Shown here in pieces: positions 1,036 to 28,443 of a stretch of 64,000 bases of DNA; positions within the stretch are counted from its first letter, which is position 1; each line of letters opens with the position of its first letter. Where the stretch lies: NCBI GenBank assembly GCA_944390575.1, contig CALXQJ010000002.1, positions 1 to 64,000 of the forward strand, in the 5' to 3' direction. Both the position numbers and the translations under genes were made by a program. Under the pieces are notes generated by a model, which saw nothing but the letters and a program-made list of their open reading frames with translations, was not told where the DNA came from and did no database searches. This stretch comes from an uncultured Spirochaetota bacterium (GTDB lineage: Bacteria > Spirochaetota > Brachyspiria > Brachyspirales > Brachyspiraceae).

Positions 1036-2091
1036 ATGCAAGACAATAATCTAACAAATCCAAATGAAAGTATTTTAAATGAAGATAGTTCTACTTCGTC
1101 TATACGACCATTAAAATTTGATGATTTTTTAGGGCAAGATAATATAAAATCAAAATTAAAAGTATTTATAGAAAGTGCAAAGAAAAGAGAAGTAGCATTA
1201 GACCATATACTTTTTTTTGGACCTCCTGGACTTGGAAAAACAACACTTTCTCAAATTATAGCAAGTGAACTTGGTACAAATATAAAAGCAACATCAGCTC
1301 CAGTAATAGAGCGTGCTGGAGATTTAGCTTCAATACTCACAACGCTACAAGAGAAAGATGTTTTATTTATAGATGAGATTCATCGTCTTCGCACTGTAGT
1401 AGAAGAAGTTTTATATTCTGCTATGGAAGATTTTTTTGTAGATATAAAGGTAGGGGAAGGAGCAAGTGCCAAGAGTTTTAGAGTAAAACTACCGCATTTT
1501 ACTTTAATAGGGGCTACTACAAGAAGTGGACTACTTTCTACACCTCTTTATGATAGATTTGGAATTATAGAGCGTCTTGAATTTTATACTGATAATAATT
1601 TAGCTGATATTGTAAAAAGAAATGCTTTACTATTAAAAATTCAAATTACAGATGATGCAGCACTATCAATAGCAAAGCGTTCTCGCGGTACACCTCGTAT
1701 TGTTAATAGACTTCTACGTCGTGTTTTTGACTTTGCTACTGTTTCTAATGTTTTAACTATAGATGAAAATTTTGCAAATGATTCTTTAGAACAATTAGGT
1801 GTAGATAAGCAGGGTTTTGAAGCATTAGACAAATTATACTTAAACACTATTATAAAAAATTATAATGGAGGACCTGTAGGAGTTGATACTTTATCTGTAT
1901 CATTATCAGAGCAAATAGAAACAATAGAAGATGTGATAGAACCATACTTAATACAAAGTGGATTTATAAAAAGAACAGCTAAAGGACGTGTTGCCACTTT
2001 GAAGGCATACTCCTATTTAAATATTAGAAAAAATTATGACGATAACTATAATATAGAAGAAAATACTTTATTTGATAATGCTAAAGAATAA
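1036..2091 (+). CDS. ruvB: Holliday junction branch migration DNA helicase RuvB
   Basis: RuvB is the hexameric AAA+ motor that, with RuvA, drives branch migration of Holliday junctions during recombination repair. The 351-residue length is normal for the family. The N-terminal segment [20 protein letters not shown] is typical. Walker A is G62-P-P-G-L-G-K68-T-T and Walker B is D113-E-I-H116. The sensor/arginine region [18 protein letters not shown] and the C-terminal winged helix (about residues 265-335, with [18 protein letters not shown]) are both present. The gene has its own promoter but no clear ribosome-binding site. The M23 peptidase gene starts 11 bp after its stop, so the two are probably cotranscribed. 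ruvA and ruvC are not in the window. Confidence 0.97.
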
Positions 2092-2102
2092 TATAGTGAG
2101 GT

Positions 2103-3257
2103 GTGATTATTTCTACTGTAGATTTGGATAAAAATAAAAATAATGTAGAACTCGATAACTACTATAAACAGGAATTAAGTAGAGATGTATCTTCTTTAGT
2201 AAATAAAGTTATATCAAATGTTTCAGATAATCATACACCTACGGTAAAGAAAAATAGAAAAATTAAAAAGTATACAAATTACAATACAAAAAGAAGTATA
2301 AAATTATATAAAAAACAAAAGAAAAGACACAAAATAGAAAATACTAAAAAAGCTTTTGTAAGACTTTATGATTCTACCTACTTTATAAGAGAAATATTTT
2401 ATGATATTTCAAAGTTTATAAAAAAGCTTGGTGGAAAAGAGAGAAGTATTTTAATATTTTATGATAATAAAGAAAAAGCTATTAATTTACCTATTAATAA
2501 CTTTATGATAATATTTTTTATATTAATTATATCTGCATTAATATATACAGGATATGATGCTTTTGAAAAACAAAAAAGTGCAAGAGAGTTTTATAATACA
2601 CTATCTGCTCGTGAGGCTAGAACATACACTTTGATTGAAGATTATAAAGGAGCATTAAAAAGATACTCAAAAGCATTAGCAGAATATAATAATATGATAA
2701 AAAATATGTCACACGATATAGATTATGATAATAGTACAATTCCTTTATTAAAAAATAATTCAGAAGATATAGACATCAATAAAACATTATTAGAAATAGA
2801 ATCATATCAAAAGGATATATTATCTTTTTTATCAGTATCTTCAAAAATACATAATGAAATACCATTAGGTTGGCCTGTATCGGGTGGTGGTAGAATATCA
2901 AGTGGATATGGTGCACGTCCTTCTCCGTTTAATCAAAGTAAGAGTTATCATTATGGGGTTGATATTGCTGGTCCTTATGGTAGTAAGATACTTGCTGTTG
3001 GTGATGGAGTTGTTACTTATGCTGGATGGCGTGGTGGATATGGTTGGTTTGTTCTTATTAATCATAAGAATGGATATCAAACTGCTTATGGACATAATTC
3101 TAAAATTTTAGTTTCATTTGGTCAAAAAGTAAAAAAAGGACAAACTATAGCATTAATTGGAAATACTGGGCGTACTACAGGTATACACTGTCATTTTGAA
3201 GTTAGGGTAGGGGGCGATCATAAAAACCCTATGCCGTATCTTGGTGCAAGATTTTAA
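2103..3257 (+). CDS. Membrane-anchored M23 (LytM-type) peptidoglycan peptidase
   Basis: This is a 384-residue zinc metallopeptidase expected to cut peptide cross-links in periplasmic peptidoglycan, or to regulate such cutting. The start is GTG with GAGG close upstream. About 130 mostly basic residues, presumably cytoplasmic, precede one membrane segment (about 134-151). A helical region follows, then the M23 domain (about 258-378). The zinc ligands are visible: H283-x3-D287 (HYGVD) and H362-C-H364 (HCHFEV), along with the family motif GNTGRTTGIHCHFE. With all ligands present it is probably catalytically active, unlike the EnvC type. The long basic cytoplasmic leader is unusual. It follows ruvB by 11 bp. 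Confidence 0.9.
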   Translation: MIISTVDLDKNKNNVELDNYYKQELSRDVSSLVNKVISNVSDNHTPTVKKNRKIKKYTNYNTKRSIKLYKKQKKRHKIENTKKAFVRLYDSTYFIREIFYDISKFIKKLGGKERSILIFYDNKEKAINLPINNFMIIFFILIISALIYTGYDAFEKQKSAREFYNTLSAREARTYTLIEDYKGALKRYSKALAEYNNMIKNMSHDIDYDNSTIPLLKNNSEDIDINKTLLEIESYQKDILSFLSVSSKIHNEIPLGWPVSGGGRISSGYGARPSPFNQSKSYHYGVDIAGPYGSKILAVGDGVVTYAGWRGGYGWFVLINHKNGYQTAYGHNSKILVSFGQKVKKGQTIALIGNTGRTTGIHCHFEVRVGGDHKNPMPYLGARF

Positions 3258-3287: not shown

Positions 3288-4895
3288 ATGCATAATTCTA
3301 ATAAGAGATATTTAGGAGAGTTTTATACTCCTTTAAGTTTTGCTAAGAAGGCTATTGATTATATTTATAAGTATATATCTAAAGAAGAGCTTGCTTCTGG
3401 AAAATATAGAATATGGGATATGGCTTGTGGGCTTGGTAATTTGGAGTATTATTTTGATAGTAGTATTTATAAGTATTTATATATGTCTACTATAAGAGAA
3501 GAAGATGTTTTATACTGCAAAAATAAATTTATAGATGCTTGTATTTTTCAGTATGATTATTTAAATGATGATATATATGATAATAATATTATATATACAA
3601 AAATACCAGAAAAATTAAAAAGAGACTTAGAAGATAAATCTATAAAGTGGATTATATTTATAAATCCTCCTTATGCTACAAGTCAAGTTGCTGGTACTAA
3701 CTCTAAGAGTAAGAAAAATGTTAGCAGTAGCCTTATAAGAGATATTATGCATAAAGAAAAATTAGGGGAGTCTTCAAGAGAGCTTTATATACAGTTTTTA
3801 TATAGAATACATAAAGAATTTTTTAATAAGAGTGCTTATTTGTTTATATTCTCAAAAACAAATTATATAAAGTCAAATAACAATGAGAAAATTAGAAATA
3901 CTATATGTAATTATAAGTTTATGGATGGATTTTTATTTTCATCTATAAATTTTGATGATACTTCAAAACAAGTTCCATTTGTTATATCATTTATTATGTG
4001 GCAAATTAGTAATAGTCATAATATAAAAAATGAAAATATTATTTTAGATGTTTTAAATGATGATACAACTTTTTCTATTAAAAAGAATTATAGTGTTGTA
4101 GATAGTAATAATTTACTTAATAAGTGGATTAAGCGTGTTCGTACATCTGAAACTTTTGTGCCATTATCTTCTGCTATTAAAGTAAAAACTAATGGAAATG
4201 ATATTCGAGATAAGGTTGCTTCTGGATTTATAGGGTCTTTAATGAGTTGTGGAAGTGACTTAATGAAACAAAATTTAACTTCTATACTTTCTGCCCCTCA
4301 AGCATCTGCTGGTTCTCTCTCTATAACAAAAGACAATTTTGAAAAGGCTATGGTAATACATGCAATTAGAAGGAGTATAAAGGTTAATTGGCTTAATAGT
4401 AGTGATCAGTTTATTATTCCAAAAGAAGATATTAGTATGGTTTTTATTTTAGATTGTATAGTATGGACTTTGTTTTCAAGTTCAAATCAAACTTCTTCTA
4501 TGGATAATGTTTATTATAATGAAAAATATTATAAAATAGTAAATCATTTTTATCCTTTTAGATATATGGAAGTTTATGAGAATAATAGTTTTTTTGATTT
4601 TGATGGTGAAGATAGATTTGTTGCTATATATATAGAAGAAAATAAAAAGTATTTATCTAAAGAAGCTATTGATTTATTAGAAAAGGGTAAAGAACTTTAT
4701 AAGTTTTTTTATTCTAATATAGATAGTATTAATAAAGAAAAATTTAAAATATCACTTTTTGATGTTGGATTTTGGCAGATTAGAAAATCTCTTAAAGATA
4801 CTAAGATAGGTGTTTCTTTACTAAAAGAGATAAAATATTATAGAGATGTATTAAGAGAAAATATATTAAAAGAATCTTATAAGTTTATTTCCTAA
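3288..4895 (+). CDS. Orphan N6-adenine DNA methyltransferase-like protein
   Basis: The 535-residue protein has the motif order of gamma-class adenine DNA methylases. The N-terminal GEFYTPLSFAKKAIDYI resembles that of type I/TaqI-like enzymes. The SAM-binding motif I is D44-MACGLGN51 and the catalytic motif IV is N126-P-P-Y129. The C-terminal half (about residues 260-535) has no motif I recognise and could recognise the target sequence. There is no restriction subunit or HsdS-like gene beside it, so it looks like a solitary methylase, or a modification module whose partner is elsewhere. It starts 30 bp after the M23 gene, has no obvious Shine-Dalgarno sequence, and ends 7 bp from a convergent gene. 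Its actual target is unknown. Confidence 0.75.
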   Translation: MHNSNKRYLGEFYTPLSFAKKAIDYIYKYISKEELASGKYRIWDMACGLGNLEYYFDSSIYKYLYMSTIREEDVLYCKNKFIDACIFQYDYLNDDIYDNNIIYTKIPEKLKRDLEDKSIKWIIFINPPYATSQVAGTNSKSKKNVSSSLIRDIMHKEKLGESSRELYIQFLYRIHKEFFNKSAYLFIFSKTNYIKSNNNEKIRNTICNYKFMDGFLFSSINFDDTSKQVPFVISFIMWQISNSHNIKNENIILDVLNDDTTFSIKKNYSVVDSNNLLNKWIKRVRTSETFVPLSSAIKVKTNGNDIRDKVASGFIGSLMSCGSDLMKQNLTSILSAPQASAGSLSITKDNFEKAMVIHAIRRSIKVNWLNSSDQFIIPKEDISMVFILDCIVWTLFSSSNQTSSMDNVYYNEKYYKIVNHFYPFRYMEVYENNSFFDFDGEDRFVAIYIEENKKYLSKEAIDLLEKGKELYKFFYSNIDSINKEKFKISLFDVGFWQIRKSLKDTKIGVSLLKEIKYYRDVLRENILKESYKFIS

Positions 4896-13489: not shown

Positions 13490-14164
13490 TTATTTTCTAT
13501 TTTTTTTACCATAAGATTTTATAGGTTCAAATGAATATCTATGCCTATCGCTTGGACTATACTTTATTATACTCTCTATATGTTCTTTAGTTCCATACCC
13601 TTTATTTTTATGAATTAAATACTTTTTATATTCATCATCAATATTTTCCATAGCTTTATCTCTAGAAACCTTTGCAATAATACTTGCACAAGCAATAGAG
13701 TAGCTTCTAAAATCACCTTTTATTATAGCCTCTTGCTTTATATTGATATCTAAGTTTAGAGCATCTATAAATAGAATATCTGGTTTTATATTTAGTTGTT
13801 CTATAGCTTTAATCATTGCGTATTTTGTAGCATTTAATATATTGATTTCATCTATTATTTTTTCTGATGCAGAATATACAGAGTAGGATAGGGCATTTTC
13901 TATAATTTGATGATATAGTTTTTCTCTTTTTTTAGCAGATATTTTTTTAGAGTCATTAATATCTTTTATTATATTTTCTCTAATAATATTATTTTGACTA
14001 TCTAATTGTAGTGGCATAATGACGGCTGAAACAGTGACCTCTCCAAAAAGAGAGCCACGTCCAACCTCATCTAATCCACAAATATATTTATAACCTTCTC
14101 TAAGGTATTTTTCTTCAAAGTATAATTTATTATCTAAATTATTATCATCTTCAAATAAATACAT
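13490..14164 (-). CDS. rnhB: Ribonuclease HII
   Basis: RNase HII cuts the RNA strand of RNA-DNA hybrids and starts removal of misincorporated ribonucleotides. The 224-residue protein contains the active-site motifs: YICGLDEVGRGSLFGEV (Asp-Glu of DEVGRG) at about residue 30, DSKKISAKKREKL, then FIDALNL and IIKGDFRSYSIACASIIAKVSRDKAM, with Asp and Ser/Ala positions as in the family. C-terminal HKNKGYGTKEH and SPSDRHRYSFEP are also standard. It starts 15 bp after the stop of the giant coiled-coil gene, with no terminator between, so it probably belongs to the same transcript unless a promoter lies inside the giant gene. Confidence 0.96.
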   Translation of the reverse strand: MYLFEDDNNLDNKLYFEEKYLREGYKYICGLDEVGRGSLFGEVTVSAVIMPLQLDSQNNIIRENIIKDINDSKKISAKKREKLYHQIIENALSYSVYSASEKIIDEINILNATKYAMIKAIEQLNIKPDILFIDALNLDINIKQEAIIKGDFRSYSIACASIIAKVSRDKAMENIDDEYKKYLIHKNKGYGTKEHIESIIKYSPSDRHRYSFEPIKSYGKKNRK

Positions 14165-14179
14165 ACTTCAAAAATCATA

Positions 14180-17100
14180 TTATAGATACTGCATCGCAAG
14201 GAAAACAGTAGCTCCAATACCAGTCAAAGAACCAAGTACAATAGCTAAATCATTATTTTTAGCTTGAGGTGTTGTATTTGTATTATTGATAGTTCTATTT
14301 TTTCTTATCTGTATAGATAATTTTTTCTCTAAGTTTTCTAAGCTCTGCTCTTGTAACATATCTCTTTGTCTTATTAGAGAATTAGTTTCCTCTCTTGCAG
14401 AGTTAAACTTATTATCAATATAGTTCTTTAACTCCTCACTTTTATTATTGTCTGTTCTTAATTTTCTTCTAACAGCTCTTAATATATTTTCTCTATCTTT
14501 GTTACAAGTATCAATAACATCATAAGCATCTTTAAGTAGATTTTTATGTTTTTCTTCTAAGTTAGTTTCAAAAACTTGATTTCTCTTAGATTGTTCTTCA
14601 AGTTTATTATTAACACTTGTATTAATATCATCTATAAGCTTATTTGTTCTTCTACTATGAGAATTAATTTTCTTATTTGCATATTTTATTAAATCCTCAT
14701 GTGTCTTGTCATACTTACTCATCATCTCTGAAGTATTTTTCATAAGCTCATTATGAGTTCTAGTTAAGTATTCATTAAACTCTTTATTTTTATTATCTTG
14801 CTCCATAATCTTATTAGATATAATGTCATTATGATCTTTTATAGCACTATTAAGATTATTTTCCACATTGCGAATAATATCAGCATTAATAGCATTATTA
14901 CGCTCTAATAAGTCCTTAGTGCTTCTAATCAAGTCTTCATTATTTCTTGTTATAGCATCATTAAGAGCGAAATTTTTTCTATCTTGCTCATCTAATCTAT
15001 TATTAACACTTTGATTAATAACTCTAATTAGTTCATTATTCTGTCTAGTTTGCTCTTCTAAAGATTTATTAGCACTATTTATAATATCTTCATAAGTTTT
15101 ATCATGCTTTCTAAGCATTTCAGTAGTACTTCTGATAAGCTCTTCATGATTCTTATTTAGATACTCAGTGAACTCTCTATTTTTATTATCATTTTCAACC
15201 ATCTTTACATTGATAGTATTATTATGTTCATCAAGTGCACTATATAGATTATCTTGAACTTCTCTTATTATCTGACTATTTAGTGCATTATTTTTTTCTA
15301 ATAAATCCTTAGCACTTCTAATTAGCTCTTCATTATTTTTGCTAATATACTCACTAAGTTGATAATTTTTTCTATCCTGTTCATTAAGTTTAGCATTAAC
15401 ACTTAAATTAATAGCATTAATTAAGTCATTATTTTGTCTGCTTTGCTTTTTTAATGATCTATGAGCCTTACCTAAAATATTTTGATAAGTTTGATCATGT
15501 TTCTGAAGCATTTCAGTAGTATTTTTAACTAAAGCTTCGTGAGTTTTACTTAAATGATCGTTAAACTCTTTATTTTTACTATCCTGTTCCATAATCTTAT
15601 AAGTCATATTTGTATTATGATCTTTTATCATCTGATTAAGATTATTTTCAACATTCTGTATTATTTGACTATTAACGATATTATTCTTTTCTAATAAATC
15701 TCTTGTAGACTTAATTAAGTCCTCATGATCTTTAGTAATAGCCTCATTAATAGCATTAGTTTTTCTATCTTGCTCATTAAGTCTGTAGTTTACACTATTA
15801 TTTAATGCATTAATAAGCTCATTATTTTGTTTTGTCTGTTCTTCTAATCTTCTATTAGTATCATTAACTATATTCTGATAACTCTGATCATGTTTTTGAA
15901 GCATTTCTGTAGTGCTTCTGATTAGAGATTCTTGAGTTTTAGCTAAATAGTCATTAAACTCTTTGTTTTTATTATCTTGTTGTAAGATTTTATAGTTTAT
16001 AATACTATCTTGCTCTTTTATAGAATTATTAAGATTAGCTTGTACTTCTCTCATAATTTCTGAGTTTAGAGCATTATTTTTTTCTAATAAATCTTTAGCA
16101 TTTTTAATTAAATCTTCATGAGTTTTAGTGAAAGATTCATTTAACTCTTGATTTTTTCTGTCTTGCTCATTAATTCTAGAGTTTACAGTTAGATTAATAG
16201 CATTTATTAAATCATTATTCTGTTTACTCTGCTTTCTTAAAGATCTATTAGCCTTACCTAATATCTCCTGATATGTTTTATCATGCTGTTGTAGCATATC
16301 AGTAGTATTTTTTAGTAGAGCTTCATGAGTTTTAGTTAGATATTCATTAAAGCTTCTGTTTTTATTATCTTGCTCTATTATTTTAGAGTTTAGAGTATCA
16401 TTATAATCTCTCATCATATTATTGAAATTACTTTCTACATTTTGAATAATCTGAGAGTTTAGAGCATTATTTTTCTCTAATAAATCTCTTGTAGTTTTAA
16501 TTAATTCTTCATGATCTTTAGTGATAGCTTCATTTAATGCATAATTTTTTCTATCTTGAGCCATCATCTTATCATTTACAGTATTATTAAGAGCTTTAAT
16601 AAGTTCATTATTTTGTCTTGTCTGCTCTTCTAATCTTCTGTTAGTACTGTCTACTATTGCTTGATAGCTTTGATCATGCTTTTGAAGCATTTCAGTAGTG
16701 TTTCTAAGTAGAGTTTCATGAGTTTTAGTTAGATAATCATTAAACTCTTTATTTTTATTATCTTGTTCTAATATCTTAAATCCTATATTAGCATCATGTG
16801 TTTTTATAGTATTATCAAGATTATATTGAACTTCTTTAATAATTTCAGAGTTCATAGCATTATTTCTTTCTAATAACTCTTTAGCACTATTAATTAACTC
16901 TTCATGACTCTTAGCAAAAGATTCACTTAAAGCATCATTTTTTCTATCTTGTTCATTAAGTCTAGAGTTAACAGTTAAGTTTATAGCATTAATAAGCTCA
17001 GCATTTTGTCTACTTTGTTTTCTTAAAGATTTATTAGCCTTACCTAATATCTCTTGATAAGATTTATCATGCTGTTGTAGCATTTCAGTAGTATTTCTTA

Positions 17101-20100
17101 GAAGAGCTTCATGAGTTTTAGCTAAGTAATCACTAAACTCTTTATTTCTATTATCATGTTCTATAATCTTAGAACCTATATCTTGATTATGTTCTTTTAT
17201 AGATTCATTAAGACTAATTTTAACATCTCTAATAATTTGATTATTTAATTCATTATTCTTCTCTAATAAGTCTCTTGCATTTTTCATAAGTTCTTCATGA
17301 TTTTTAGCAAAAGATTCATTTAGAGCAATAGCTTTTTTATCTTGCTCATCTAATCTACTACTTACATTTAAGTTTATAGTATTGATAAGCTCATTATTTT
17401 GTCTTGTCTGTTCTTCTAATCTTCTATTAGTATCATTTACTATATTCTGATAAGCTCTGTCATGTTCTTTAAGCATATCAGTAGTATTTCTGATTAATTC
17501 TTCATGAGTTTTAGCTAAGTAGTTACTAAACTCTTTATTTTTATTATCATTTTCTAAAATCTTAAAGTGAATAGTATCATTTTGTGTTTGTATTTTCTCA
17601 TTAAGATTTCTTTGTACTTCTTTAATAATCTGATTATTTAGAGAGTTATTTTTCTCTAATAATTCTTTAGCACTTTTGATTAAGTCTTCATTATTTTTAC
17701 GAACAGCTTCATTTAGATCAGCATTTTTTCTATCTTGCTCATATATCTTGCTATTTACAGCATTATTAATAGCAGTGATAAGATCAGCATTTTTTCTAGT
17801 TTGTTCTTCTAATCTTTCATTAGCATTAGCTATAATATCTGCATAAGTTTTATCATGTTTAGCAAGCATTTCTGTAGTATTTTTCATTAAAGCTTCATGA
17901 GTTTTAGCTAAGTAGCTATTAAACTCTTTGTTTTTATTATCTTGCTCTAATAATTGTAGTTTAATAGAAGAATTTTGTTCTTTAATAGAGTTATTAAGGT
18001 TATCTTGAACTTCTTTAATAACTTGAGCGTTCATATTGTTGTTTCTATCTAATAAGTCTTTTGTATTTTTAATTAGCTCTTCATGATTTTTATTAATTTG
18101 TTCACTTAAAGCAGTATTTTTTCTATCTTGTTCATACAACTGAGTATTAACAGTATTAGTGATAGTATTAATTAAATCATTATTGATTCTAGTTTGTTCT
18201 TCTAATTTTCTATTAGTGTTATTAACTATATCCTCATAAGTTTTATCATGTTTAGCTATCATATCAGTAGTATTTCTTAGTAGCTCTTCATGAGTTTTAG
18301 CTAAATTGTCACTAAATTCTTTGTTTTTATAATCCTGCTCACGCATTTTATAGCTCATAGCAGTATTTTGTTCTTTTATAGTAATATTAAGATTTTCTTG
18401 AACATCTTTAATAATCTCAGCATTTAGAGCATTATTTTTCTCTAATAACTCTTTAGTATTCTTAATAAGCTCTGCATGACTTCTGCTGAATGAGTCATTT
18501 AATCTTTCACTCTTTCTATCTTGCTCTTCAAGTCTATTGTTTACACTATTATTAAGAGCTTGTATTAATTGCTCATTTCTATGAGTTTGCTCTTCTAACT
18601 TTCTATTAGTGTTATTAACTATGTCTTGATAAGACTTATCGTGTTTAGCAAGCATCTCTGTAGTGTTTCTTAATAACTCTTCACCTGTTTTAGCTAAGTA
18701 GTCGCTAAAGTCTTTATTTTTAATATCCTGCTCACGCATTTTCATACTCATAGCAGTATCATGATCTTTAATAGTGCTATTTAGGTTAGTTTGAACATCT
18801 TTAATAATTTGAGCATTCATCTCATTATTACGTTCTAATAACTCTTTAGCACTCTTCATTAAGTCTATATGATTTTTGTTTATAGACTCACTTAAGTCAT
18901 GATTTTTTCTATCCTGCTCAGTAAGTTTTGCATTTACAGTGTTATTGATAGTATTTATAAGATCATTATTAAGTCTAGTTTGTTCTTCAAGCTTTTGATT
19001 AGTATTATTTACTATATCTTGATAAGACTTATCATGTTTTTGAAGCATTTCAGTAGTATTTCTTAGAAGTGCTTCGTGAGTTTTAGCTAAGTAGTCACTA
19101 AAGTCTTTATTTTTATGATCTTGCTCTACCATTTTGAATTTCATAGTAGTATCATGTTCTTTTATAGTGTTATTAAGGTTACTTTGAACTTCCTTAATAA
19201 TTTGAGCATTCATAGCATTATTTTTTTCTAATAAGTCTTTAGTATTTCTTATTAACTCTTCATGATTTTTATTTATAGTTTCATTTAGATAATGATTTTT
19301 TCTATCATGCTCTGCTAATTGACTGTTAACAGTTTGAGTTAGAGCATTTATTATTTCATTATTCTGCTTTGTTTGATATTCCAACTTTTTATTAGTGTTG
19401 TTAATAATATCTTCATAAGCCTTATCATGTTTCTGAAGCATTTCAGTAGTATTTCTTAGAAGTGCTTCATGAGTTCTGCTTAAGTATTCACTAAACTCTT
19501 TATTTTTATTTTCATTTTCTGTGATTTTGAAATTAATGTTTGTATCATGCTCTTTAATAGTATTATTAAGATTAGTTTGAACATCTTTAATAATTTGAGC
19601 ATTCATAGCATTATTACGTTCTAATAAATCTTTAGCATTTTTGATTAATTCTTCATGATTTTTATTTATTAGAACATTAAAGTCAGCATTTTTTCTATCT
19701 TGATCTTCAAGTCTTGAGTTTACACTACTATTGATAGCATTTATTAAGTCTTGATTTTGTTTGCTTTGTTCTTCTAATCTCTTATTAGTATTAGCTACAA
19801 TATCTTCATAAGCTCTATCATGTTTCTGAAGCATTTCAGTAGTATTTCTAATTAATTCTTCATGAGTTTTAGTTAGATAATCACTGAACTCTTTATTTTT
19901 ATGCTCATTTTCCATTATTCTAAAGCTAATATTATCATTATGTTCTTTTATAGTATTATTAAGATTAGTTTGAACATCTTTGATAATTTGAGCGTTCATT
20001 ACATTATTACGCTCTAATAAGTCTTTAGCATTTTTGATTAACTCTTCATGATTTCTGTTGATCATTTCATTTAGATCAGCATTTTTTCTATCCTGTTCAG

Positions 20101-23100
20101 CCAACTTAGAATTTACAGTATTATCAAGAGATTGAATTAATTGTTCATTTCTATGAGTTTGTTCTTCAAGTTTTTGATGAGTAGCTGTTACTATATCATC
20201 ATAAGCTCTGTCATGCTTTTGAAGCATATCAGTAGTATTTCTTATTAACTCTTCATAAGTTTTGTTTAGATAATCACTAAACTCTTTATTTTTCTGATCA
20301 TTTTGAACCATTTTATAGTTCATAGCCATATCATGATCTTTAATTTTGTTGTTTAGATTATCCTGAACTTCTTTAATTATTTGATTGTTCATTAAGTTAT
20401 TTTTTTCTAATAACTCTTTTGTATTTCTAATAAGCTCTTCATGACTCTTATTGAAAGACTCTGTAAGTCTATCATTCTTTCTATCATGTTCTGCCAATTT
20501 AGCATTTACACTATTATTAAGCATACTTAGAAGATCATTATTTTGTTTAGTTTGTTCTTCAAGTCTCTTATTAGTGCTATGAACCATATCTTCATAAGTT
20601 TTGTCATGTTTAGCAAGCATTTCAGTAGTATTTTTAATTATCTCTTGATGAGTTTTATTTAAATACTCTGCGAACTCTTTATTTTTCTGTTCATTTTCTA
20701 TCATCTTATAGTTGATAGAAGTATCATGCTCTTTTATAGTGTTATTAAGGTTGCTTTGAACTTCCTTAATAATCTGAGAGTTCATTTCATTATTTCTTTC
20801 TAATAATTCTTTTGTATTTCTAATAAGCTCTTCATGACTCTTATTGAAAGATTCTGTTAATCTATCATTTTTTCTATCTTGTTCTGATAACTTAGCATTT
20901 ACACTATTATTTATAGCAGTTAGAAGCTCATTATTTTGTCTTGTTTGTTCTTCAAGCTTTTGATTAGTGCTATTAACTATATCTTGATAAGATTTATCAT
21001 GTTTCTGAAGCATTTCAGTAGTATTTCTTAGAAGTGCTTCATGAGTTTTAGCTAAGTAGTCACTAAACTCTTTATTTTTAGTGTCATACTCCATCATTTT
21101 GAAGTTTATAGCAGAATCATGTTCTTTTATAGTATTATTAAGGTTGCTTTGAACTTCTTTGATAATTTGATTGTTCATAGCATTATTACGTTCTAATAAT
21201 TCTTTAGCGTTTTTGATTAACTCTTCATGATTTCTATTAATAGCTTCATTTAGATCTTCATTTTTTCTATCTTGCTCTTCTAATTTAGCATTTACACTAT
21301 TATTTATAGCATTGATTAACTCTTTATTTTGTTTAGTTTGTTCTTCTAATTTTAGATTAGTGCTATGTACTATATCTTGATAATTTTTATCGTGCTTAGC
21401 AAGCATTTCAGTAGTATTTCTTAGAAGTGCATCATGAGTTTTAGCTAAGTAATCGCTAAATTCTTTATTTTTATAATCTTGCTCTAATAATTTGTTATTA
21501 ACAGCTGTATTTTGCTCTTTTATAGTATTATTAAGATTGCTTTGAACCTCTTTAATAATTTGAGCATTCATAGCATTGTTTTTCTCTAAAAGAGATTGAG
21601 CATTTCTAATTAACTCTTCATGATTTCTATTGATAGACTCATTTAAGTCGGCATTTTTTCTATCATGTTCTTCAAGTTTAAGAGTTACACTATTATTTAT
21701 AGCATTAATTAATTCTTGATTCTGTCTTGTTTGTTCTTCAAGCTTCTTATTTGTACTATGAACCATATCTTCATAAGTTTTATCATGCTTAGCAAGCATT
21801 TCAGTAGTATTTCTAAGAAGTTCTTGATGAGTTTTATTTAAGTATTCACTAAACTCTTTATTTTTAGTATTTTGTTCAGCAAGTTGTCCTTGTACACTAA
21901 TATTTTGTTCTTTAATAGTGTTATTAAGATTAGTCTGAACATCTTTGATCATTTGAGCATTCATTACATTATTTTGCTCTATTAGATCTTTAGCATTTTT
22001 AATTAACTCTTCATGATTTTTATTTATAGTATCATTAAGTTTGTTATTTTTTCTTTCTTGTTCTTCAAGTCTTGCAGTTACACTATTATTTAAAGCTTCT
22101 ATTAACTCAGAGTTTTGTCTAGTATTTTCTTCAAGTTTAAGATTTGTATTATTAACAACATCCTCATAAGCTTTATCATGCTTAGCAAGCATATCAGTAG
22201 TATTTCTAAGCAATTCTTCATGAGTTTTGCTTAAGTACTCACTAAACTCTTTATTTTTATTGTCTTGCTCCATAAGTTTGAAGCTAATGCTTTCATTTTG
22301 AGCATTAATTTTTTCATTAAGATTTTCTTGAACACTCTTAATGATTTCATTATTCATAGCATTATTTTGCTCTAATAATTCTTTAGCATTTCTAATTAAC
22401 TCTTCATGACTCTTATTGAAAGCAGCATTAAGTTTTTCACTCTTTCTATCTTGTTCAGTAAGTCTTGCTTCTACACTCTGATTTAATGCATTTATAAGCT
22501 CATTGTTTCTTTGAGTTTGCTCTTCAAGTTTCTGATTAGTGCTGATAACAATATCATTATAGCTCTTATCATGCTTTTGTAGCATTTCTGTAGTATTTTT
22601 AAGTAATTCTTGATGAGTTTTACTTAAATACTCATTAAACTCTTTGTTTTTTACATCCTGTTCTGATATTTTAAAGCTTATAGTAGCATTATGTTCTTGA
22701 ATAGTGTTGTTTAAGCTTTCTTGAACATCTTTAATTATTTGAGAGTTCATAGCATTATTTTTTTCTAATAATTCTTTAGTACTCTTAATTAATTCTTGAT
22801 GATTTTTATTTATAGATTCATTTAAAGCTTCATTTTTCTTATCATGCTCTTGTAGTCTTGCAGTTACACTATTATTTATAGCATTGATAAGTTCATTATT
22901 TTGTTTAGTCTGCTCCTCAAGCTTTTTATTTGTATTATGAACCATATCTTCATAAGTTTTATCGTGCTTTTTAAGCATTTCAGTAGTATTTTTTAGCAAT
23001 TCTTGATGAGTTTTGCTTAGATAATCATTGAACTCTTTATTTCTACTATCTTGTTGGAGCATTTTTTTGCTCATAGCATCATTTTGCTCTTTTATAGTAT

Positions 23101-26100
23101 TATTAAGATTGTCTTGTACACTCTTAATAATTTCAGAGTTCATAGCATTATTTTTTTCTAATAATTCTTTAGTGCTTCTGATTAATTCTTCATGACTTCT
23201 ATTAAATGCTTCATTCATATCCGCATTTTTTCTGTCTTGTTCTTCAAGTCTTGTGTTTACACTATTATTTAATGCAGCTATAAGTTCATTATTCTGCTTA
23301 GTTTGTTCTTCAAGCTTCTTATTAGTATTATTAATAATATCTTCATAAGCTTTATCATGCTTTTGTAGCATTTCTGTAGTATTTCTAAGTAATGCTTCGT
23401 GATTCTTATTTAAATAATCGCTAAACTCTTTATTTTTATTATCATGTTCCAAGAGTTTTAAGTTTACAGCTTCATTTTGCTCTCTTATAGTGTTATTAAG
23501 ATTCTCTTGTACATCTCTAATAATCTGAGAGTTCATAGCATTATTTTGCTCTAATAAGTCCTTAGCATTCTTAATTAACTCTTCATGAGTTTTATTAAAT
23601 GCTTCATTCATATCAGCACTCTTTTTATCCTGTTCATCAAGTCTTGCAGTAACACTATCATTAAGCGCCTTGATTAACTCATTATTTCTTTGAGTTTGCT
23701 CTTCAAGTTTCTTATTAGTGTTACTAATAATATCCTGATAATTTTTATCGTGCTTTTCTAGCATTTCTGTAGTATTTCTTAATAGAGCATCATGAGTTTT
23801 GCTTAAATATTCATTAAATTCTTTATTTTTATTATCTTGTTCGAGCATTCTTGCTGTCATAGAGTCGCTATGCTCTTTTATAGTAGTATTAAGATTGTTT
23901 TGAACATTCTTAATAATTTCAGAGTTCATAGCATTGTTTTGATCTAACAACTCTCTAGCATTATTGATTAGCTCTTCATGATTTTTATTTATAGATTCTG
24001 TAAGAGCATTATTTCTTTTTTCTTGCTCTTGTAATTTTAGATCTACATTATTATTAATAGCATTGATAAGCTCATTATTTTGCTTAGTTTGTTCTTCTAA
24101 TTTTCTATTAGCATTTTCAATGATATCTTCATAACTCTTGTCGTGTTTTTGAAGCATTTCTGTAGTATTTCTAAGTAATGCTTCGTGAGTTTTGCTTAGA
24201 TATTCATTAAATTCTTTATTTCTATTTTCTTGCTCTAATATTTTTGAGTTTATACTTTCATTTTGTAATTGAATTTTGTGGCTAAGATCATTTTGTACAG
24301 TTTTAATGATCTCAGAGTTCATAGCATTATTTTTTTCTAATAATTCTTTAGCACTCTTAATCAATTCTTCATGATTTTTATTTATAGCAGAGTTAAGATC
24401 TGCATTTTTCTTATCTTGCTCATCAAGTCTTGCAGTAACACTATCATTAAGAGCTTTAATAAGTTCATCATTTTGTTTAGTTTGTTCTTCTAATTTTCTA
24501 TTAGTGCTTTCAATGATATCTTCATAGCTCTTATCATGCTTTTTAAGCATTTCAGAAGTATTTTTAAGCAATGCTTCATGAGTTTTGCTTAGATATTTAT
24601 TAAACTCTTTGTTTCTATTTTCTTGTTCTAATAATTTATCGTGAATAGCATTATTTTGTTCTTGTATTCTATTATTAAGATTATCTTGTACATTCTTAAT
24701 AATTTCAGAGTTCATAGTATTATTTTTTTCTAATAACTCTTTTGCATTTTTCATCAATTCCTGATGATTTTTATTGAATACAGCATTAAGGTCTGCATTT
24801 TTTCTTTCTTGCTCTTCAAGTCTTGCATTAACACTATTGTTTATAGCATTGATAAGCTCATTATTTTGTTTAGTTTGTTCTTCTAATTGCTTATTTGCAC
24901 TTGCTATGATGCCTTCATAAGTTTTATCATGTTCTTTGAGCATATCATTAGCATTTTTCATAAGTTCATCATGAGCTTTGCTTAAATACTCATTAAACTC
25001 TCTATTTCTATTATCTTGCTCAACCATCTTATTATGCATAGCATCAGTATGTTCTTTAATCTTATTATTAAGATTATCCTGAGCTTTCTTAATAAGTTCA
25101 GTATTCATAGCGTTATTTTTTTCTAATAACTCTTTTGCATTTTTGATTAACTCTTCATGACTTTTGTTGAATGTTTCATTTAGAGTATTATTTTTTCTAT
25201 CTTGTTCATCTAATCTTGAGTTTATAGTTTCATTGATGATTTTAATAAGTTCATCATTTTTAATAGTTTGTTCTTCTAACTTTTTATTAGTATGAGCTAA
25301 TATTTCTTCATAAGCCTTATCATGTTTTTTAAACATTGCTGTTGTAGTTTTGATAAGGGAATCGTGAGTTTTACTTAAATGCTTATTAAACTTCTTGTTT
25401 TTATTGTCTTGTTCTAAAAGTTTTAATATTATAGCATCATTTTGTTCTTTAATTTTATTATTAAGATTTTCTTGTACACTCTTAATAATTTCAGAGTTCA
25501 TATCATTATTTTTTTGTAGCAATTCTCTTGCACTTTTCATCAACTCTTGATGGCTTTTATTAAACTTATCATTGAACTCTGCATTTCTTCTTTCTTGTTC
25601 TTCTAATCTTGAAGTTACACTATTGTTAATAGCTTCGATAAGCTCTGTATTTTGTTTATTTTGTTCTTCTAATCTTGTATTAGTATTATTTACAATATCT
25701 TTAAAAGTTTTATCATGCTTTTGTAGCATTTCAGTTGTACTTTTCATAAGATCATCGTGAGTCTTATTTAAGTATTTACTGAACTCTTTATTTTTGTCAT
25801 CTTGCTGATTAATTTTTAGATTAATATTATATTCATAATTTCTAAGCTTTTCATCTATATTTTCAGTATTAGTTCTTACTAATTCAGAGCTTTTATCTAA
25901 AAGATCATTAGCATTTCTTAAAATATCTTCATGGTTTTTATTAATATTTTCAGTAAGTTCTTTATTTATCTCTTCTTGCTGTTTAAGTTTAGCCTCTAGT
26001 GAAGCTGTTAATTTTTTAGTACTTTCTTCTTGCTGAGATAATTTATGACTTATTTTATTCTCATGCTCTTGCATAGTGCTTCTTAAGCTTTTATCAAGAG

Positions 26101-26929
26101 TATTAATCATCTCAGAGTTCATTTTATTATTTTTATCTAATAACTCTTTTGTACTTTTAAGAACTTTTTTGTGTCTTTTATCTATACTTATATCAAATTC
26201 TCTGTTTTTAGTATCTTGTTCTAACATTTTGATACTAATATCATCGCTTTGATCTTTTATCTGATCTTGAATAGTTTGTTTAAGTTCAGCACTTAATTGA
26301 TTATGTTTTTCTATTAATTCTTTAGCACTATCTAATAATTCTTCATTATTTTTATTTAATTGCTCAGTAAGTTCTGCATTTTTCTTATCTTGAGCTTCAA
26401 GTCTTGCATTAACACTTGTATTGATAGAGTTAAGAAGTTCATTATTTTTCTTAGCTTGTTCTTCTAATTTCTTATTAGTATTAGAAATAAGCTCTTGATA
26501 GCTTTTATCACGTTCTTGTAGTAAATCAGAAGCACTACTTAAAACATCTCTTTGAGTTTTATCTAATCTTTCTTTTAATTCTTTAGTAATATTACCTTGT
26601 TCCGATAATTTAGCTTGAATGTCTTCATTAATGTTTTTTATAGCTTCATTATTCTCATTATTCTTTTTTTCCAAAAGGGCTTCAGTATTTTTTACTAATT
26701 CTTCATTATTTTTTTCTATAGTTTTAGCCAACTCTTGATGTTTTTTATTTTGTTCTTCTATTTTCTTTTCTAATTCTTTTTTAATTTCTTCACCATCTAT
26801 ATTACCACTTGATAGGGATATATTGTCTTGAGTATTTTTCAAAGAATCCGATGCATATACGTTGCGATTAAAAAATTCTTTGTTTCTTTTATCCATTTCA
26901 TCGAAATTCTGTAAATCTTTTTTTTCCAT
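14180..26929 (-). CDS. Giant repeat coiled-coil protein with C-terminal membrane anchor
   Basis: At 4249 residues (12.75 kb) this gene fills a fifth of the window. There is no signal peptide. Residues 1 to about 385 are irregular coiled coil. From about 385 to 4100 the protein consists of 131-residue units in strict register. Each unit has two related halves of 66 and 65 residues, marked by THEALLRNTTEMLQKHD and SHEELIKNAKELLEKNN. It is very rich in Asn, Glu, Lys, Gln, Leu and Ile, with no Pro inside the regular units I read. A divergent tail (about 4100-4225) precedes one hydrophobic segment (about 4227-4249, LAIVLGSLTGIGATVFLAMQ). I infer a long cytoplasmic rod fixed to the inner membrane by its C-terminus, perhaps structural. 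AAGGA precedes the ATG. It heads the run to rnhB and the flagellar-export-like genes. No catalytic domain is seen. Confidence 0.9.
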   Translation of the reverse strand: MEKKDLQNFDEMDKRNKEFFNRNVYASDSLKNTQDNISLSSGNIDGEEIKKELEKKIEEQNKKHQELAKTIEKNNEELVKNTEALLEKKNNENNEAIKNINEDIQAKLSEQGNITKELKERLDKTQRDVLSSASDLLQERDKSYQELISNTNKKLEEQAKKNNELLNSINTSVNARLEAQDKKNAELTEQLNKNNEELLDSAKELIEKHNQLSAELKQTIQDQIKDQSDDISIKMLEQDTKNREFDISIDKRHKKVLKSTKELLDKNNKMNSEMINTLDKSLRSTMQEHENKISHKLSQQEESTKKLTASLEAKLKQQEEINKELTENINKNHEDILRNANDLLDKSSELVRTNTENIDEKLRNYEYNINLKINQQDDKNKEFSKYLNKTHDDLMKSTTEMLQKHDKTFKDIVNNTNTRLEEQNKQNTELIEAINNSVTSRLEEQERRNAEFNDKFNKSHQELMKSARELLQKNNDMNSEIIKSVQENLNNKIKEQNDAIILKLLEQDNKNKKFNKHLSKTHDSLIKTTTAMFKKHDKAYEEILAHTNKKLEEQTIKNDELIKIINETINSRLDEQDRKNNTLNETFNKSHEELIKNAKELLEKNNAMNTELIKKAQDNLNNKIKEHTDAMHNKMVEQDNRNREFNEYLSKAHDELMKNANDMLKEHDKTYEGIIASANKQLEEQTKQNNELINAINNSVNARLEEQERKNADLNAVFNKNHQELMKNAKELLEKNNTMNSEIIKNVQDNLNNRIQEQNNAIHDKLLEQENRNKEFNKYLSKTHEALLKNTSEMLKKHDKSYEDIIESTNRKLEEQTKQNDELIKALNDSVTARLDEQDKKNADLNSAINKNHEELIKSAKELLEKNNAMNSEIIKTVQNDLSHKIQLQNESINSKILEQENRNKEFNEYLSKTHEALLRNTTEMLQKHDKSYEDIIENANRKLEEQTKQNNELINAINNNVDLKLQEQEKRNNALTESINKNHEELINNARELLDQNNAMNSEIIKNVQNNLNTTIKEHSDSMTARMLEQDNKNKEFNEYLSKTHDALLRNTTEMLEKHDKNYQDIISNTNKKLEEQTQRNNELIKALNDSVTARLDEQDKKSADMNEAFNKTHEELIKNAKDLLEQNNAMNSQIIRDVQENLNNTIREQNEAVNLKLLEHDNKNKEFSDYLNKNHEALLRNTTEMLQKHDKAYEDIINNTNKKLEEQTKQNNELIAALNNSVNTRLEEQDRKNADMNEAFNRSHEELIRSTKELLEKNNAMNSEIIKSVQDNLNNTIKEQNDAMSKKMLQQDSRNKEFNDYLSKTHQELLKNTTEMLKKHDKTYEDMVHNTNKKLEEQTKQNNELINAINNSVTARLQEHDKKNEALNESINKNHQELIKSTKELLEKNNAMNSQIIKDVQESLNNTIQEHNATISFKISEQDVKNKEFNEYLSKTHQELLKNTTEMLQKHDKSYNDIVISTNQKLEEQTQRNNELINALNQSVEARLTEQDRKSEKLNAAFNKSHEELIRNAKELLEQNNAMNNEIIKSVQENLNEKINAQNESISFKLMEQDNKNKEFSEYLSKTHEELLRNTTDMLAKHDKAYEDVVNNTNLKLEENTRQNSELIEALNNSVTARLEEQERKNNKLNDTINKNHEELIKNAKDLIEQNNVMNAQMIKDVQTNLNNTIKEQNISVQGQLAEQNTKNKEFSEYLNKTHQELLRNTTEMLAKHDKTYEDMVHSTNKKLEEQTRQNQELINAINNSVTLKLEEHDRKNADLNESINRNHEELIRNAQSLLEKNNAMNAQIIKEVQSNLNNTIKEQNTAVNNKLLEQDYKNKEFSDYLAKTHDALLRNTTEMLAKHDKNYQDIVHSTNLKLEEQTKQNKELINAINNSVNAKLEEQDRKNEDLNEAINRNHEELIKNAKELLERNNAMNNQIIKEVQSNLNNTIKEHDSAINFKMMEYDTKNKEFSDYLAKTHEALLRNTTEMLQKHDKSYQDIVNSTNQKLEEQTRQNNELLTAINNSVNAKLSEQDRKNDRLTESFNKSHEELIRNTKELLERNNEMNSQIIKEVQSNLNNTIKEHDTSINYKMIENEQKNKEFAEYLNKTHQEIIKNTTEMLAKHDKTYEDMVHSTNKRLEEQTKQNNDLLSMLNNSVNAKLAEHDRKNDRLTESFNKSHEELIRNTKELLEKNNLMNNQIIKEVQDNLNNKIKDHDMAMNYKMVQNDQKNKEFSDYLNKTYEELIRNTTDMLQKHDRAYDDIVTATHQKLEEQTHRNEQLIQSLDNTVNSKLAEQDRKNADLNEMINRNHEELIKNAKDLLERNNVMNAQIIKDVQTNLNNTIKEHNDNISFRIMENEHKNKEFSDYLTKTHEELIRNTTEMLQKHDRAYEDIVANTNKRLEEQSKQNQDLINAINSSVNSRLEDQDRKNADFNVLINKNHEELIKNAKDLLERNNAMNAQIIKDVQTNLNNTIKEHDTNINFKITENENKNKEFSEYLSRTHEALLRNTTEMLQKHDKAYEDIINNTNKKLEYQTKQNNEIINALTQTVNSQLAEHDRKNHYLNETINKNHEELIRNTKDLLEKNNAMNAQIIKEVQSNLNNTIKEHDTTMKFKMVEQDHKNKDFSDYLAKTHEALLRNTTEMLQKHDKSYQDIVNNTNQKLEEQTRLNNDLINTINNTVNAKLTEQDRKNHDLSESINKNHIDLMKSAKELLERNNEMNAQIIKDVQTNLNSTIKDHDTAMSMKMREQDIKNKDFSDYLAKTGEELLRNTTEMLAKHDKSYQDIVNNTNRKLEEQTHRNEQLIQALNNSVNNRLEEQDRKSERLNDSFSRSHAELIKNTKELLEKNNALNAEIIKDVQENLNITIKEQNTAMSYKMREQDYKNKEFSDNLAKTHEELLRNTTDMIAKHDKTYEDIVNNTNRKLEEQTRINNDLINTITNTVNTQLYEQDRKNTALSEQINKNHEELIKNTKDLLDRNNNMNAQVIKEVQDNLNNSIKEQNSSIKLQLLEQDNKNKEFNSYLAKTHEALMKNTTEMLAKHDKTYADIIANANERLEEQTRKNADLITAINNAVNSKIYEQDRKNADLNEAVRKNNEDLIKSAKELLEKNNSLNNQIIKEVQRNLNEKIQTQNDTIHFKILENDNKNKEFSNYLAKTHEELIRNTTDMLKEHDRAYQNIVNDTNRRLEEQTRQNNELINTINLNVSSRLDEQDKKAIALNESFAKNHEELMKNARDLLEKNNELNNQIIRDVKISLNESIKEHNQDIGSKIIEHDNRNKEFSDYLAKTHEALLRNTTEMLQQHDKSYQEILGKANKSLRKQSRQNAELINAINLTVNSRLNEQDRKNDALSESFAKSHEELINSAKELLERNNAMNSEIIKEVQYNLDNTIKTHDANIGFKILEQDNKNKEFNDYLTKTHETLLRNTTEMLQKHDQSYQAIVDSTNRRLEEQTRQNNELIKALNNTVNDKMMAQDRKNYALNEAITKDHEELIKTTRDLLEKNNALNSQIIQNVESNFNNMMRDYNDTLNSKIIEQDNKNRSFNEYLTKTHEALLKNTTDMLQQHDKTYQEILGKANRSLRKQSKQNNDLINAINLTVNSRINEQDRKNQELNESFTKTHEDLIKNAKDLLEKNNALNSEIMREVQANLNNSIKEQDSIINYKILQQDNKNKEFNDYLAKTQESLIRSTTEMLQKHDQSYQNIVNDTNRRLEEQTKQNNELINALNNSVNYRLNEQDRKTNAINEAITKDHEDLIKSTRDLLEKNNIVNSQIIQNVENNLNQMIKDHNTNMTYKIMEQDSKNKEFNDHLSKTHEALVKNTTEMLQKHDQTYQNILGKAHRSLKKQSRQNNDLINAINLSVNAKLNEQDRKNYQLSEYISKNNEELIRSAKDLLEKNNALNSQIIREVQDNLYSALDEHNNTINVKMVENDNKNREFTEYLNKNHEELIRSTTEMLRKHDKTYEDIINSANKSLEEQTRQNNELIRVINQSVNNRLDEQDRKNFALNDAITRNNEDLIRSTKDLLERNNAINADIIRNVENNLNSAIKDHNDIISNKIMEQDNKNKEFNEYLTRTHNELMKNTSEMMSKYDKTHEDLIKYANKKINSHSRRTNKLIDDINTSVNNKLEEQSKRNQVFETNLEEKHKNLLKDAYDVIDTCNKDRENILRAVRRKLRTDNNKSEELKNYIDNKFNSAREETNSLIRQRDMLQEQSLENLEKKLSIQIRKNRTINNTNTTPQAKNNDLAIVLGSLTGIGATVFLAMQYL
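14722..25738 (-). repeat. Tandem 393-bp coding repeat, at least 29 units in perfect register
   Basis: A short anchor in each unit (GCATTTCAGTAGT or a variant, encoding part of the TTEML segment) occurs at 14722, 15115, 15508, 15901, 16294, 16687 and 17080. I rechecked it at 17473, 17866, 18259, 20224, 22189, 24154, 24940, 25333 and 25726. All lie on a 393-bp grid: 28 intervals equal 11004 bp exactly. Units differ by many substitutions, but no insertion or deletion has accumulated. Confidence 0.95.
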
Positions 26930-27060: not shown

Positions 27061-28443
27061 TTGGCAAAAGTTTTAGGACAAACAACTCCATTAAAAATAA
27101 TGTCTGGTATATATAAGAGTGGAAGACTACATCATGCTTATTTATTCTATGGTGAAGAGGGAGTAGGTAAGTTTGAGAGTGCTTTGAATTATGCTAAGGT
27201 GATACAGTGCGATAGGCAGGATGGTACTTACTGTGATGAGTGTAAGTCTTGTAAGATGATAGATCAGTATAAGCATCCTGATGTTGTTGTTGCTGGTACT
27301 GATGAGCGTTTTAGAAATGCTGAGATTTATTTTAATCAATATATAGAATATAAATTGCCTTATTTATTTAATAATTTTTATACCGCTTGTAGATCTATAC
27401 TTTATAAAGTAGAAAGTATGATTTTTAATAGTTATGATAACTACCCATCTAGTGAGCCTAAAGAATATATGCTTGGCTCTAAAAAAGAAACTTCAAGATA
27501 TGCATTAATAGAGCCTTATTACTTAGCTGTTAATTATACTCTTCAAGAATTAAGAGAAGATAATATAGAATATATAGACTCTATATTTAGAGCAAAATCT
27601 AAAGAAGCCTTAGAAATAGTAAAAAATAAAGGAATGAAGAAAAAAGCAAGCATAGAGGGAGATTTCTTTACAGCTTTAAAAAAAATACATTATAATATAA
27701 TTCATACTGTAATCCCATTAGATACAGTTAGAAATATTATAGAAATAACTTATAGAAAACCAAGATTAGGTAAAAAAAGAGTTATAATTATAGAAGGTTT
27801 AGAACTAATGGATGGTAGAGCCCCTAATATCTTTTTAAGAACATTAGAAGAGCCTACAGATAATAATATATTTATTCTTATAACATCAAATAGTAATAAT
27901 TTAGTTCAAGATGGTATGAAACCATTACTTTCTCGTATGATGTCTTTGGAATTCTCTTCTTTACAAGAGAAAACTCTAAGATCTATACTAATGAAGAGAT
28001 TAAGATTAGATGAAGAAAAAACAGCCTCAGTTATAGATTATGCTAATGGTAGTGTGTCAAAAGCTGTAAAATATTTGCTTGACAAAAAATTAAATACAAG
28101 CGATAATCTTATCGAAGTATTATTGTCTTTTATAGACTCTATTCTTCATAAAGATGCTTCTAAAATATCAAGTATCATAACTCTACTAACAGAAAATGAT
28201 TATGATATTATAGACGTGCTTAAAGAATTAAGTAACATTTTTAAAAAATCTTTAGAAGATAAGTATTTAGAAGTAGATAATAGAAAATATATACTTCCAA
28301 GTTCTATTACAGATGAAAGTATTATTTTTATAATAGATGAGTTGGATATGATTATTAATACCTTAATCAATACTAATTCACAACCGAAAATGATACTTTG
28401 TAAGGCTTTAACTAACATTTATATGTGGTTACATAATTATTAA
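27061..28443 (+). CDS. holB: DNA polymerase III delta' subunit-like clamp-loader ATPase
   Basis: Delta' is the clamp-loader subunit that helps place the sliding clamp on DNA. The 460-residue protein starts at TTG, eight bases after AGGAG. It has LHHAYLFYGEEGVGKFESALNYAK (Walker A, about 24-47), then a zinc module with cysteines in CDRQDGTYCDECKSCK and HPDVVV. Later it has RVIIIEGLELMDGRAPNIFLRTLEEP, the sensor-like ITSNSNN and LLSRMMSLEF. Between about residue 83 and 217 there is an insertion of roughly 130 residues of charged/helical sequence, which explains the excess over the usual 320-350. Whether this subunit is delta' or a diverged relative is not fully settled. The next gene starts 19 bp later. 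Confidence 0.85.
   Translation: MAKVLGQTTPLKIMSGIYKSGRLHHAYLFYGEEGVGKFESALNYAKVIQCDRQDGTYCDECKSCKMIDQYKHPDVVVAGTDERFRNAEIYFNQYIEYKLPYLFNNFYTACRSILYKVESMIFNSYDNYPSSEPKEYMLGSKKETSRYALIEPYYLAVNYTLQELREDNIEYIDSIFRAKSKEALEIVKNKGMKKKASIEGDFFTALKKIHYNIIHTVIPLDTVRNIIEITYRKPRLGKKRVIIIEGLELMDGRAPNIFLRTLEEPTDNNIFILITSNSNNLVQDGMKPLLSRMMSLEFSSLQEKTLRSILMKRLRLDEEKTASVIDYANGSVSKAVKYLLDKKLNTSDNLIEVLLSFIDSILHKDASKISSIITLLTENDYDIIDVLKELSNIFKKSLEDKYLEVDNRKYILPSSITDESIIFIIDELDMIINTLINTNSQPKMILCKALTNIYMWLHNY

Follow-up and report, generated by a model that had tools for sequence, protein, structure and literature searches.

The last six regular units of a tandem array in a giant gene of Brachyspira alternate between two types, A and B, and this alternation is real. 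The pairing behind it is old and has been kept at the protein level; it is not the trace of recent growth. The array lies in the window (the whole stretch of 64,000 nucleotides that was analysed), and its gene encodes a helical protein of 4,249 residues (about 499 kDa by translation of the ORF), read on the minus strand between the genes for RNase HII and a DNA polymerase III delta'-like protein.

The giant gene and its array

The gene, its parts and its neighbours are as follows:

13490..14164, minus strand: RNase HII gene (rnhB), same strand as the rod gene and 15 bp downstream of it
14180..26929, minus strand: giant helical rod protein gene, start codon to stop (ORF list, translation)
14183..14251, minus strand: C-terminal transmembrane segment (tail anchor), residues about 4227-4249, by hydropathy
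14789..25792, minus strand: array, 28 units (3-30) of exactly 131 codons, aligned without insertions or deletions
25793..26929, minus strand: N-terminal region, residues 1-379, not in the regular 131-residue array, with the same 3.64 stripe
27061..28443, plus strand: DNA polymerase III delta'-like gene, divergent neighbour of the rod gene

The array spans residues 380-4047 with a period of exactly 131 codons (393 bp), and its units are numbered 3 to 30 from the N-terminus. Proline is absent from it, and hydrophobic residues recur every 131/36 = 3.639 residues (36 turns per unit), in phase over 3,668 residues (spectral power 274) and at a period common to the flanking N- and C-terminal parts of the protein. 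The phase of this stripe is flat across the unit boundary; a spectrin-like bundle was set aside because the stripe stays in phase over the entire unit. AlphaFold2 modelled a unit pair as two helices, residues 2-127 and 132-261, weakly interrupted where they meet, at low confidence (pTM 0.25), and a hairpin arrangement of units is possible in this model, for which Foldseek returned no match in the PDB. The C-terminal segment is the sole hydrophobic stretch above 1.6 in the whole protein, and no N-terminal stretch reaches the threshold that it meets, from which we infer a cytoplasmic, tail-anchored rod. Inside the cell several chains would presumably join into a straight rod, about 630 nm long if it is one straight helix.

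Neither Pfam nor NCBIfam holds a family matching the 4,249-residue protein, PHROGs likewise gave nothing meaningful, and a profile of the unit pair found no relative among viral contigs. Elsewhere in the window, the ORF 57579-59315 contains 12-30 bp tandem repeats at 58429-58627; their consensus is TTAGCTTTAGCTTCAGCTTCTGCC, and they are Ala-rich on the minus strand.

Two unit types, alternating in protein but not in silent sites

The C-terminal end of the array comprises the following units, those of types A and B being assigned by identity and tree unless stated otherwise:

16754..17146, minus strand: unit 25, type A
16361..16753, minus strand: unit 26, type B
15968..16360, minus strand: unit 27, type A
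15575..15967, minus strand: unit 28, type B
15182..15574, minus strand: unit 29, type A, more diverged
14789..15181, minus strand: unit 30, type B per tree, without both quoted B marks
14396..14788, minus strand: degenerate 31st unit, EE pair lost

The original prediction, that the last six units alternate, holds: units 25, 27 and 29 are of type A and units 26, 28 and 30 of type B. The type A mark, GCCTTACCTA, starts at 15465, 16251 and 17037, positions 786 bp or exactly two units (2 x 393 bp) apart, and these three copies are all that the window contains, against 0.06 expected. The type B mark, ATGATCTTTA, is present at 15725 and 16511 as predicted but is not specific to B units, since the window has further copies at 18761 and 20333, both beyond the A-B block and at a different phase of the unit. 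Unit 30, of type B according to the tree, carries neither of the quoted B marks. Within the A-B block, identity to the unit two places away is 73, 73, 66 and 64%, against 56-57% to the adjacent unit. Units nearer the N-terminus are unpaired, as had been proposed, with a lag-2 minus lag-1 excess of at most 0.013 in all six-unit blocks starting at units 3-21; this excess is clearly positive solely in six-unit blocks that reach the last units. The 31st unit, considered as a continuation of the alternation, was rejected: it has lost the EE pair and is basic, yet shows no overall affinity to A or B.

A likelihood tree of all 28 units of 131 codons, the check proposed with the prediction, grouped A units with A units (99/94) and B units with B units (79/84). 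Adjacent units were not always nearest neighbours, as the outcome named as contrary would have required: joining units 25+26, 26+27 or 27+28 was rejected (AU p <= 2.4e-4). The tree further resolved the sub-pairs (25,27) (99/91) and (26,28) (97/88), so that the branching order is mirrored, ((25,27),29) in A and ((26,28),30) in B, which is the prediction of two-unit block copying. A DNA tree of the units agrees with the likelihood tree, and third positions fail to resolve the A from the B types. Outside the A-B stretch adjacent units cluster (15+16 and 17+18, also 12+13 in the DNA tree), indicating that single-unit growth or exchange was the rule elsewhere in the array. The A-B units behave as members of a higher-order tandem repeat in one respect, grouping by position within a multi-unit block and not with their neighbours; the whole-block likeness, silent sites included, that marks recent block copying was not found. 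Divergence from the other units is greater close to either end of the array than in its centre (Spearman 0.64 with distance from the end, p 2e-4), which is why we interpret the A-B stretch as an old edge of the array and not as its growth zone.

The contrast between A and B peaks at unit positions 27-52 and 105-117, and dropping columns 28-60 and 100-117, which were picked after seeing the data, removes most of the alternation (p 0.32). The alternation may thus be patch-wise and not whole-unit. Lag 2 nevertheless exceeds lag 1 in nine of ten blocks of 13 residues along the unit. The segment V/I-N-N-x-N-x-K-L-E-E-Q-T is replaced in A units by L-G-K-A-N-x-S-L-R-K-Q-S, an EE-to-RK change, and unit positions 36-48 carry a net charge of +5 in each of the three A units, compared with 0 to +2 in the 25 others. 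The three basic patches, one at every second unit and hence about 39 nm apart if the helix is straight, are:

17003..17050, minus strand: basic patch of unit 25 (ILGKANKSLRKQSRQN), net +5
16217..16264, minus strand: basic patch of unit 27 (ILGKANRSLRKQSKQN), net +5
15431..15478, minus strand: basic patch of unit 29 (ILGKAHRSLKKQSRQN), net +5

Derived residues exist in B units as well, for example E at position 107, a site occupied by Q in 21 of the 22 units that lie outside the A-B block.

The age of the pairing was addressed at silent sites, with a null obtained by shuffling codons within columns. Same-type units two apart use the same codon for 58-77% of their shared residues (about 65%), against about 60% from codon bias alone. 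The silent lag-2 minus lag-1 contrast of the A-B block is -0.067 against a null of -0.006 +/- 0.025, neighbours being if anything closer; over the whole array the silent signal is evident at lag 1 (z 4.6), slight at lag 2 (z 1.3) and nowhere clear beyond, and units 25 and 27 retain some silent similarity (z 2.3). The longest exact runs between same-type units are 18-23 bp. Two yardsticks help to gauge these values. Repeats in congeners whose copies grew recently have 80-92% of codons in common and exact runs of 50-332 bp; the delta' gene found here shares 58-64% of codons with its congeners (saturation 53%), and close species share 82-93%. Measured against both, the silent divergence indicates that the A-B pairing is old. 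The claim that this part grew recently by copying unit pairs therefore fails, because silent sites are near-randomised and without pair signal and exact runs are short. Its companion, that the alternation records how the gene expanded, survives in part: the tree and the congruent order fit block copying, and the word "recent" is contradicted. The suggested paired function is possible, since what is left of the alternation is confined to the protein sequence and a charge switch is part of it.

Explanations for the alternation

Taken whole, the explanation that on balance accounts best for these data is an old two-unit block repeat in a cytoplasmic, tail-anchored rod whose types were kept by selection; its historical part (old pair copying, silent scrambling and selection) is likely and is held with more assurance than the whole. 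A pair of 131-residue units would have been copied twice as a block, long ago, at the membrane-proximal edge of the array, at a time about as old as the deep splits of the genus, judging by silent-site divergence. Silent positions would later have been scrambled, and selection on the protein would have held the type-specific residues and so kept the types apart, the strongest retained difference being the basic EE-to-RK patch on every second unit.

The most serious alternative, which we consider unlikely, requires no pair duplication at all: A and B marks would have arisen by selection or by short gene-conversion patches on a single-unit array, favouring alternating charge, for example for partner fit or staggered assembly. 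The concentration of the signal in two patches with little elsewhere, silent sites common to neighbours and not to same-type units, and a basic charge switch exactly in A units all agree with this alternative. Convergence, however, predicts neither that A and B each own derived residues nor that they share one branching order, and the excess of lag 2 over lag 1 along nearly the whole unit also speaks against it. Because silent sites are saturated, old selected block duplication and patch-wise selection or conversion are only partly separable; the shared branching order favours the former. Recent expansion through copying of unit pairs is very unlikely. Type-wise clustering with congruent order, and a DNA identity of 82% between units 25 and 27, are what it would produce, but it is at odds with silent sites near saturation that lack a pair signal, and with exact runs of at most 23 bp where recently grown congeners have more than twice that. 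Chance resemblance or an assembly artefact is scarcely credible: coiled-coil repeats easily come to look alike and only six units are involved, but permuted unit orders give alternation equally strong anywhere in the array with p of about 0.001, in-register exact runs between units never exceed 54 bp, so that units are distinguishable even by short reads, and the frame is open over an unbroken 12.7 kb.

With an old block duplication as the preferred history, its functional side is more tentative: a cytoplasmic tether or scaffold is a plausible but somewhat doubtful role for the rod. The basic patches might serve, at regular intervals, as points of contact with a partner filament, lipid or nucleic acid. 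That the alternation is a functional ruler, with basic docking patches at every second unit (about 39 nm) in the membrane-near part of a ~0.6-micrometre rod acting as a golgin-like tether in thin spirochaete cells, is an analogy that we regard as improbable, though less so than recent pair copying. The alternation itself is ordinary repeat-gene history, with the caution that pairing at the protein level does not by itself imply recent growth. Greater interest attaches to the host gene, which reaches 4,249 residues in this lineage and belongs to a family of tail-anchored helical rods that changes fast and has no name; the family offers a natural length series for testing the role of such a rod.

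Relatives in Brachyspira and comparison with known systems

Relatives were sought in 26 genomes of the genus, at loci L055-L078 upstream of rnhB; RNase HII was found in 25 of the 26. Where the contig permits, rnhB is preceded by a gene for a tail-anchored helical protein, beyond which lies, in most cases, delta' in divergent orientation, and a coil gene between the two was seen in most congeners examined. The giant gene shares the features of this family, namely the delta'-rnhB position, the C-terminal transmembrane tail and a stripe near 3.63 residues per turn. Three genomes were examined from two other genera of Brachyspiraceae, and none has a coil gene adjacent to rnhB. One genus member (G021, L058:6000-16600) has unrelated genes before rnhB, among them one similar to DNA adenine methylases, and a coil gene was not seen there. 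In another (G007, L075, rnhB at about 2011-2660, minus strand) the match to RNase HII is divided between two frames, pointing to a frameshift that is either genuine or an assembly error. In the delta' tree, genome G000 branches deeply within the genus; its 2.0 Mb make it smaller than any other of the 26 genus members listed, which span 2.5-3.4 Mb. In the libraries searched the family is unnamed, and we found no paper describing it; Pfam searches of congener proteins gave mutually inconsistent coil matches and no passing stretch.

The 131-residue period occurs in none of the congener coil genes compared, several of whose ORFs are truncated by runs of N or contig ends; G006, a fragmented assembly, has a 147-residue coil form. 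The repeat module is nevertheless homologous: unit residues 1-69 align to the 69-residue unit of the L075 group with a score of 224 (null 63 +/- 12), the last 62 residues align to it more weakly (117, null 58 +/- 11), and the two halves of the 131-residue unit resemble each other (107.5 vs 54 +/- 11). These matches imply successive repeat levels of 69, then 69+62 = 131, then 262 residues. A locking of unit lengths across the family to whole helical turns was considered and rejected, the mean distance from a whole turn being 0.218 against 0.25 by chance at 3.635 only, a weak and non-independent result.

The congener coil genes between delta' and rnhB are thus the closest counterparts of the rod gene, like it in neighbours, C-terminal anchor, stripe of ~3.6 residues and tandem repeats, and unlike it in length (intact frames of 643-1,829 vs 4,249 residues) and main period (54-121 vs 131 residues). 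One of them (L068:1835-6508, minus strand) contains a recent higher-order repeat with alternating spacings of 101 + 105 = 206 residues and exact DNA runs of up to 332 bp. Two spacings alternate there and were copied as blocks, as is likely for the two unit types of the A-B stretch; with 87% same codon at lag 206 the L068 copies are recent, whereas the silent sites of the A-B stretch are scrambled.

Beyond the genus, SMC, MukB and Rad50 have been named as the longest prokaryotic coiled coils, and in 22 proteomes surveyed by a heptad-based predictor no bacterial coiled-coil domain exceeded 400 residues (PMC1322226). The rod protein shares long helical coils with SMC/MukB/Rad50 but differs from SMC/Rad50 in having a tail anchor and no match to an ABC ATPase head in Pfam or NCBIfam; two congener proteins gave weak, coil-only matches to SMC and Rad50, far under curated cut-offs. 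Our literature search found no paper linking Brachyspira and cytoplasmic filaments. The golgins giantin, golgin-84 and CASP combine a very long coiled coil with a C-terminal membrane anchor and an N-terminus free in the cytoplasm (PMC4707255). They are eukaryotic, no sequence relation to them is expected and, unlike the rod protein, they are not one regular tandem array, so that the likeness is one of working principle only: a long coil held to a membrane at its C-terminus.
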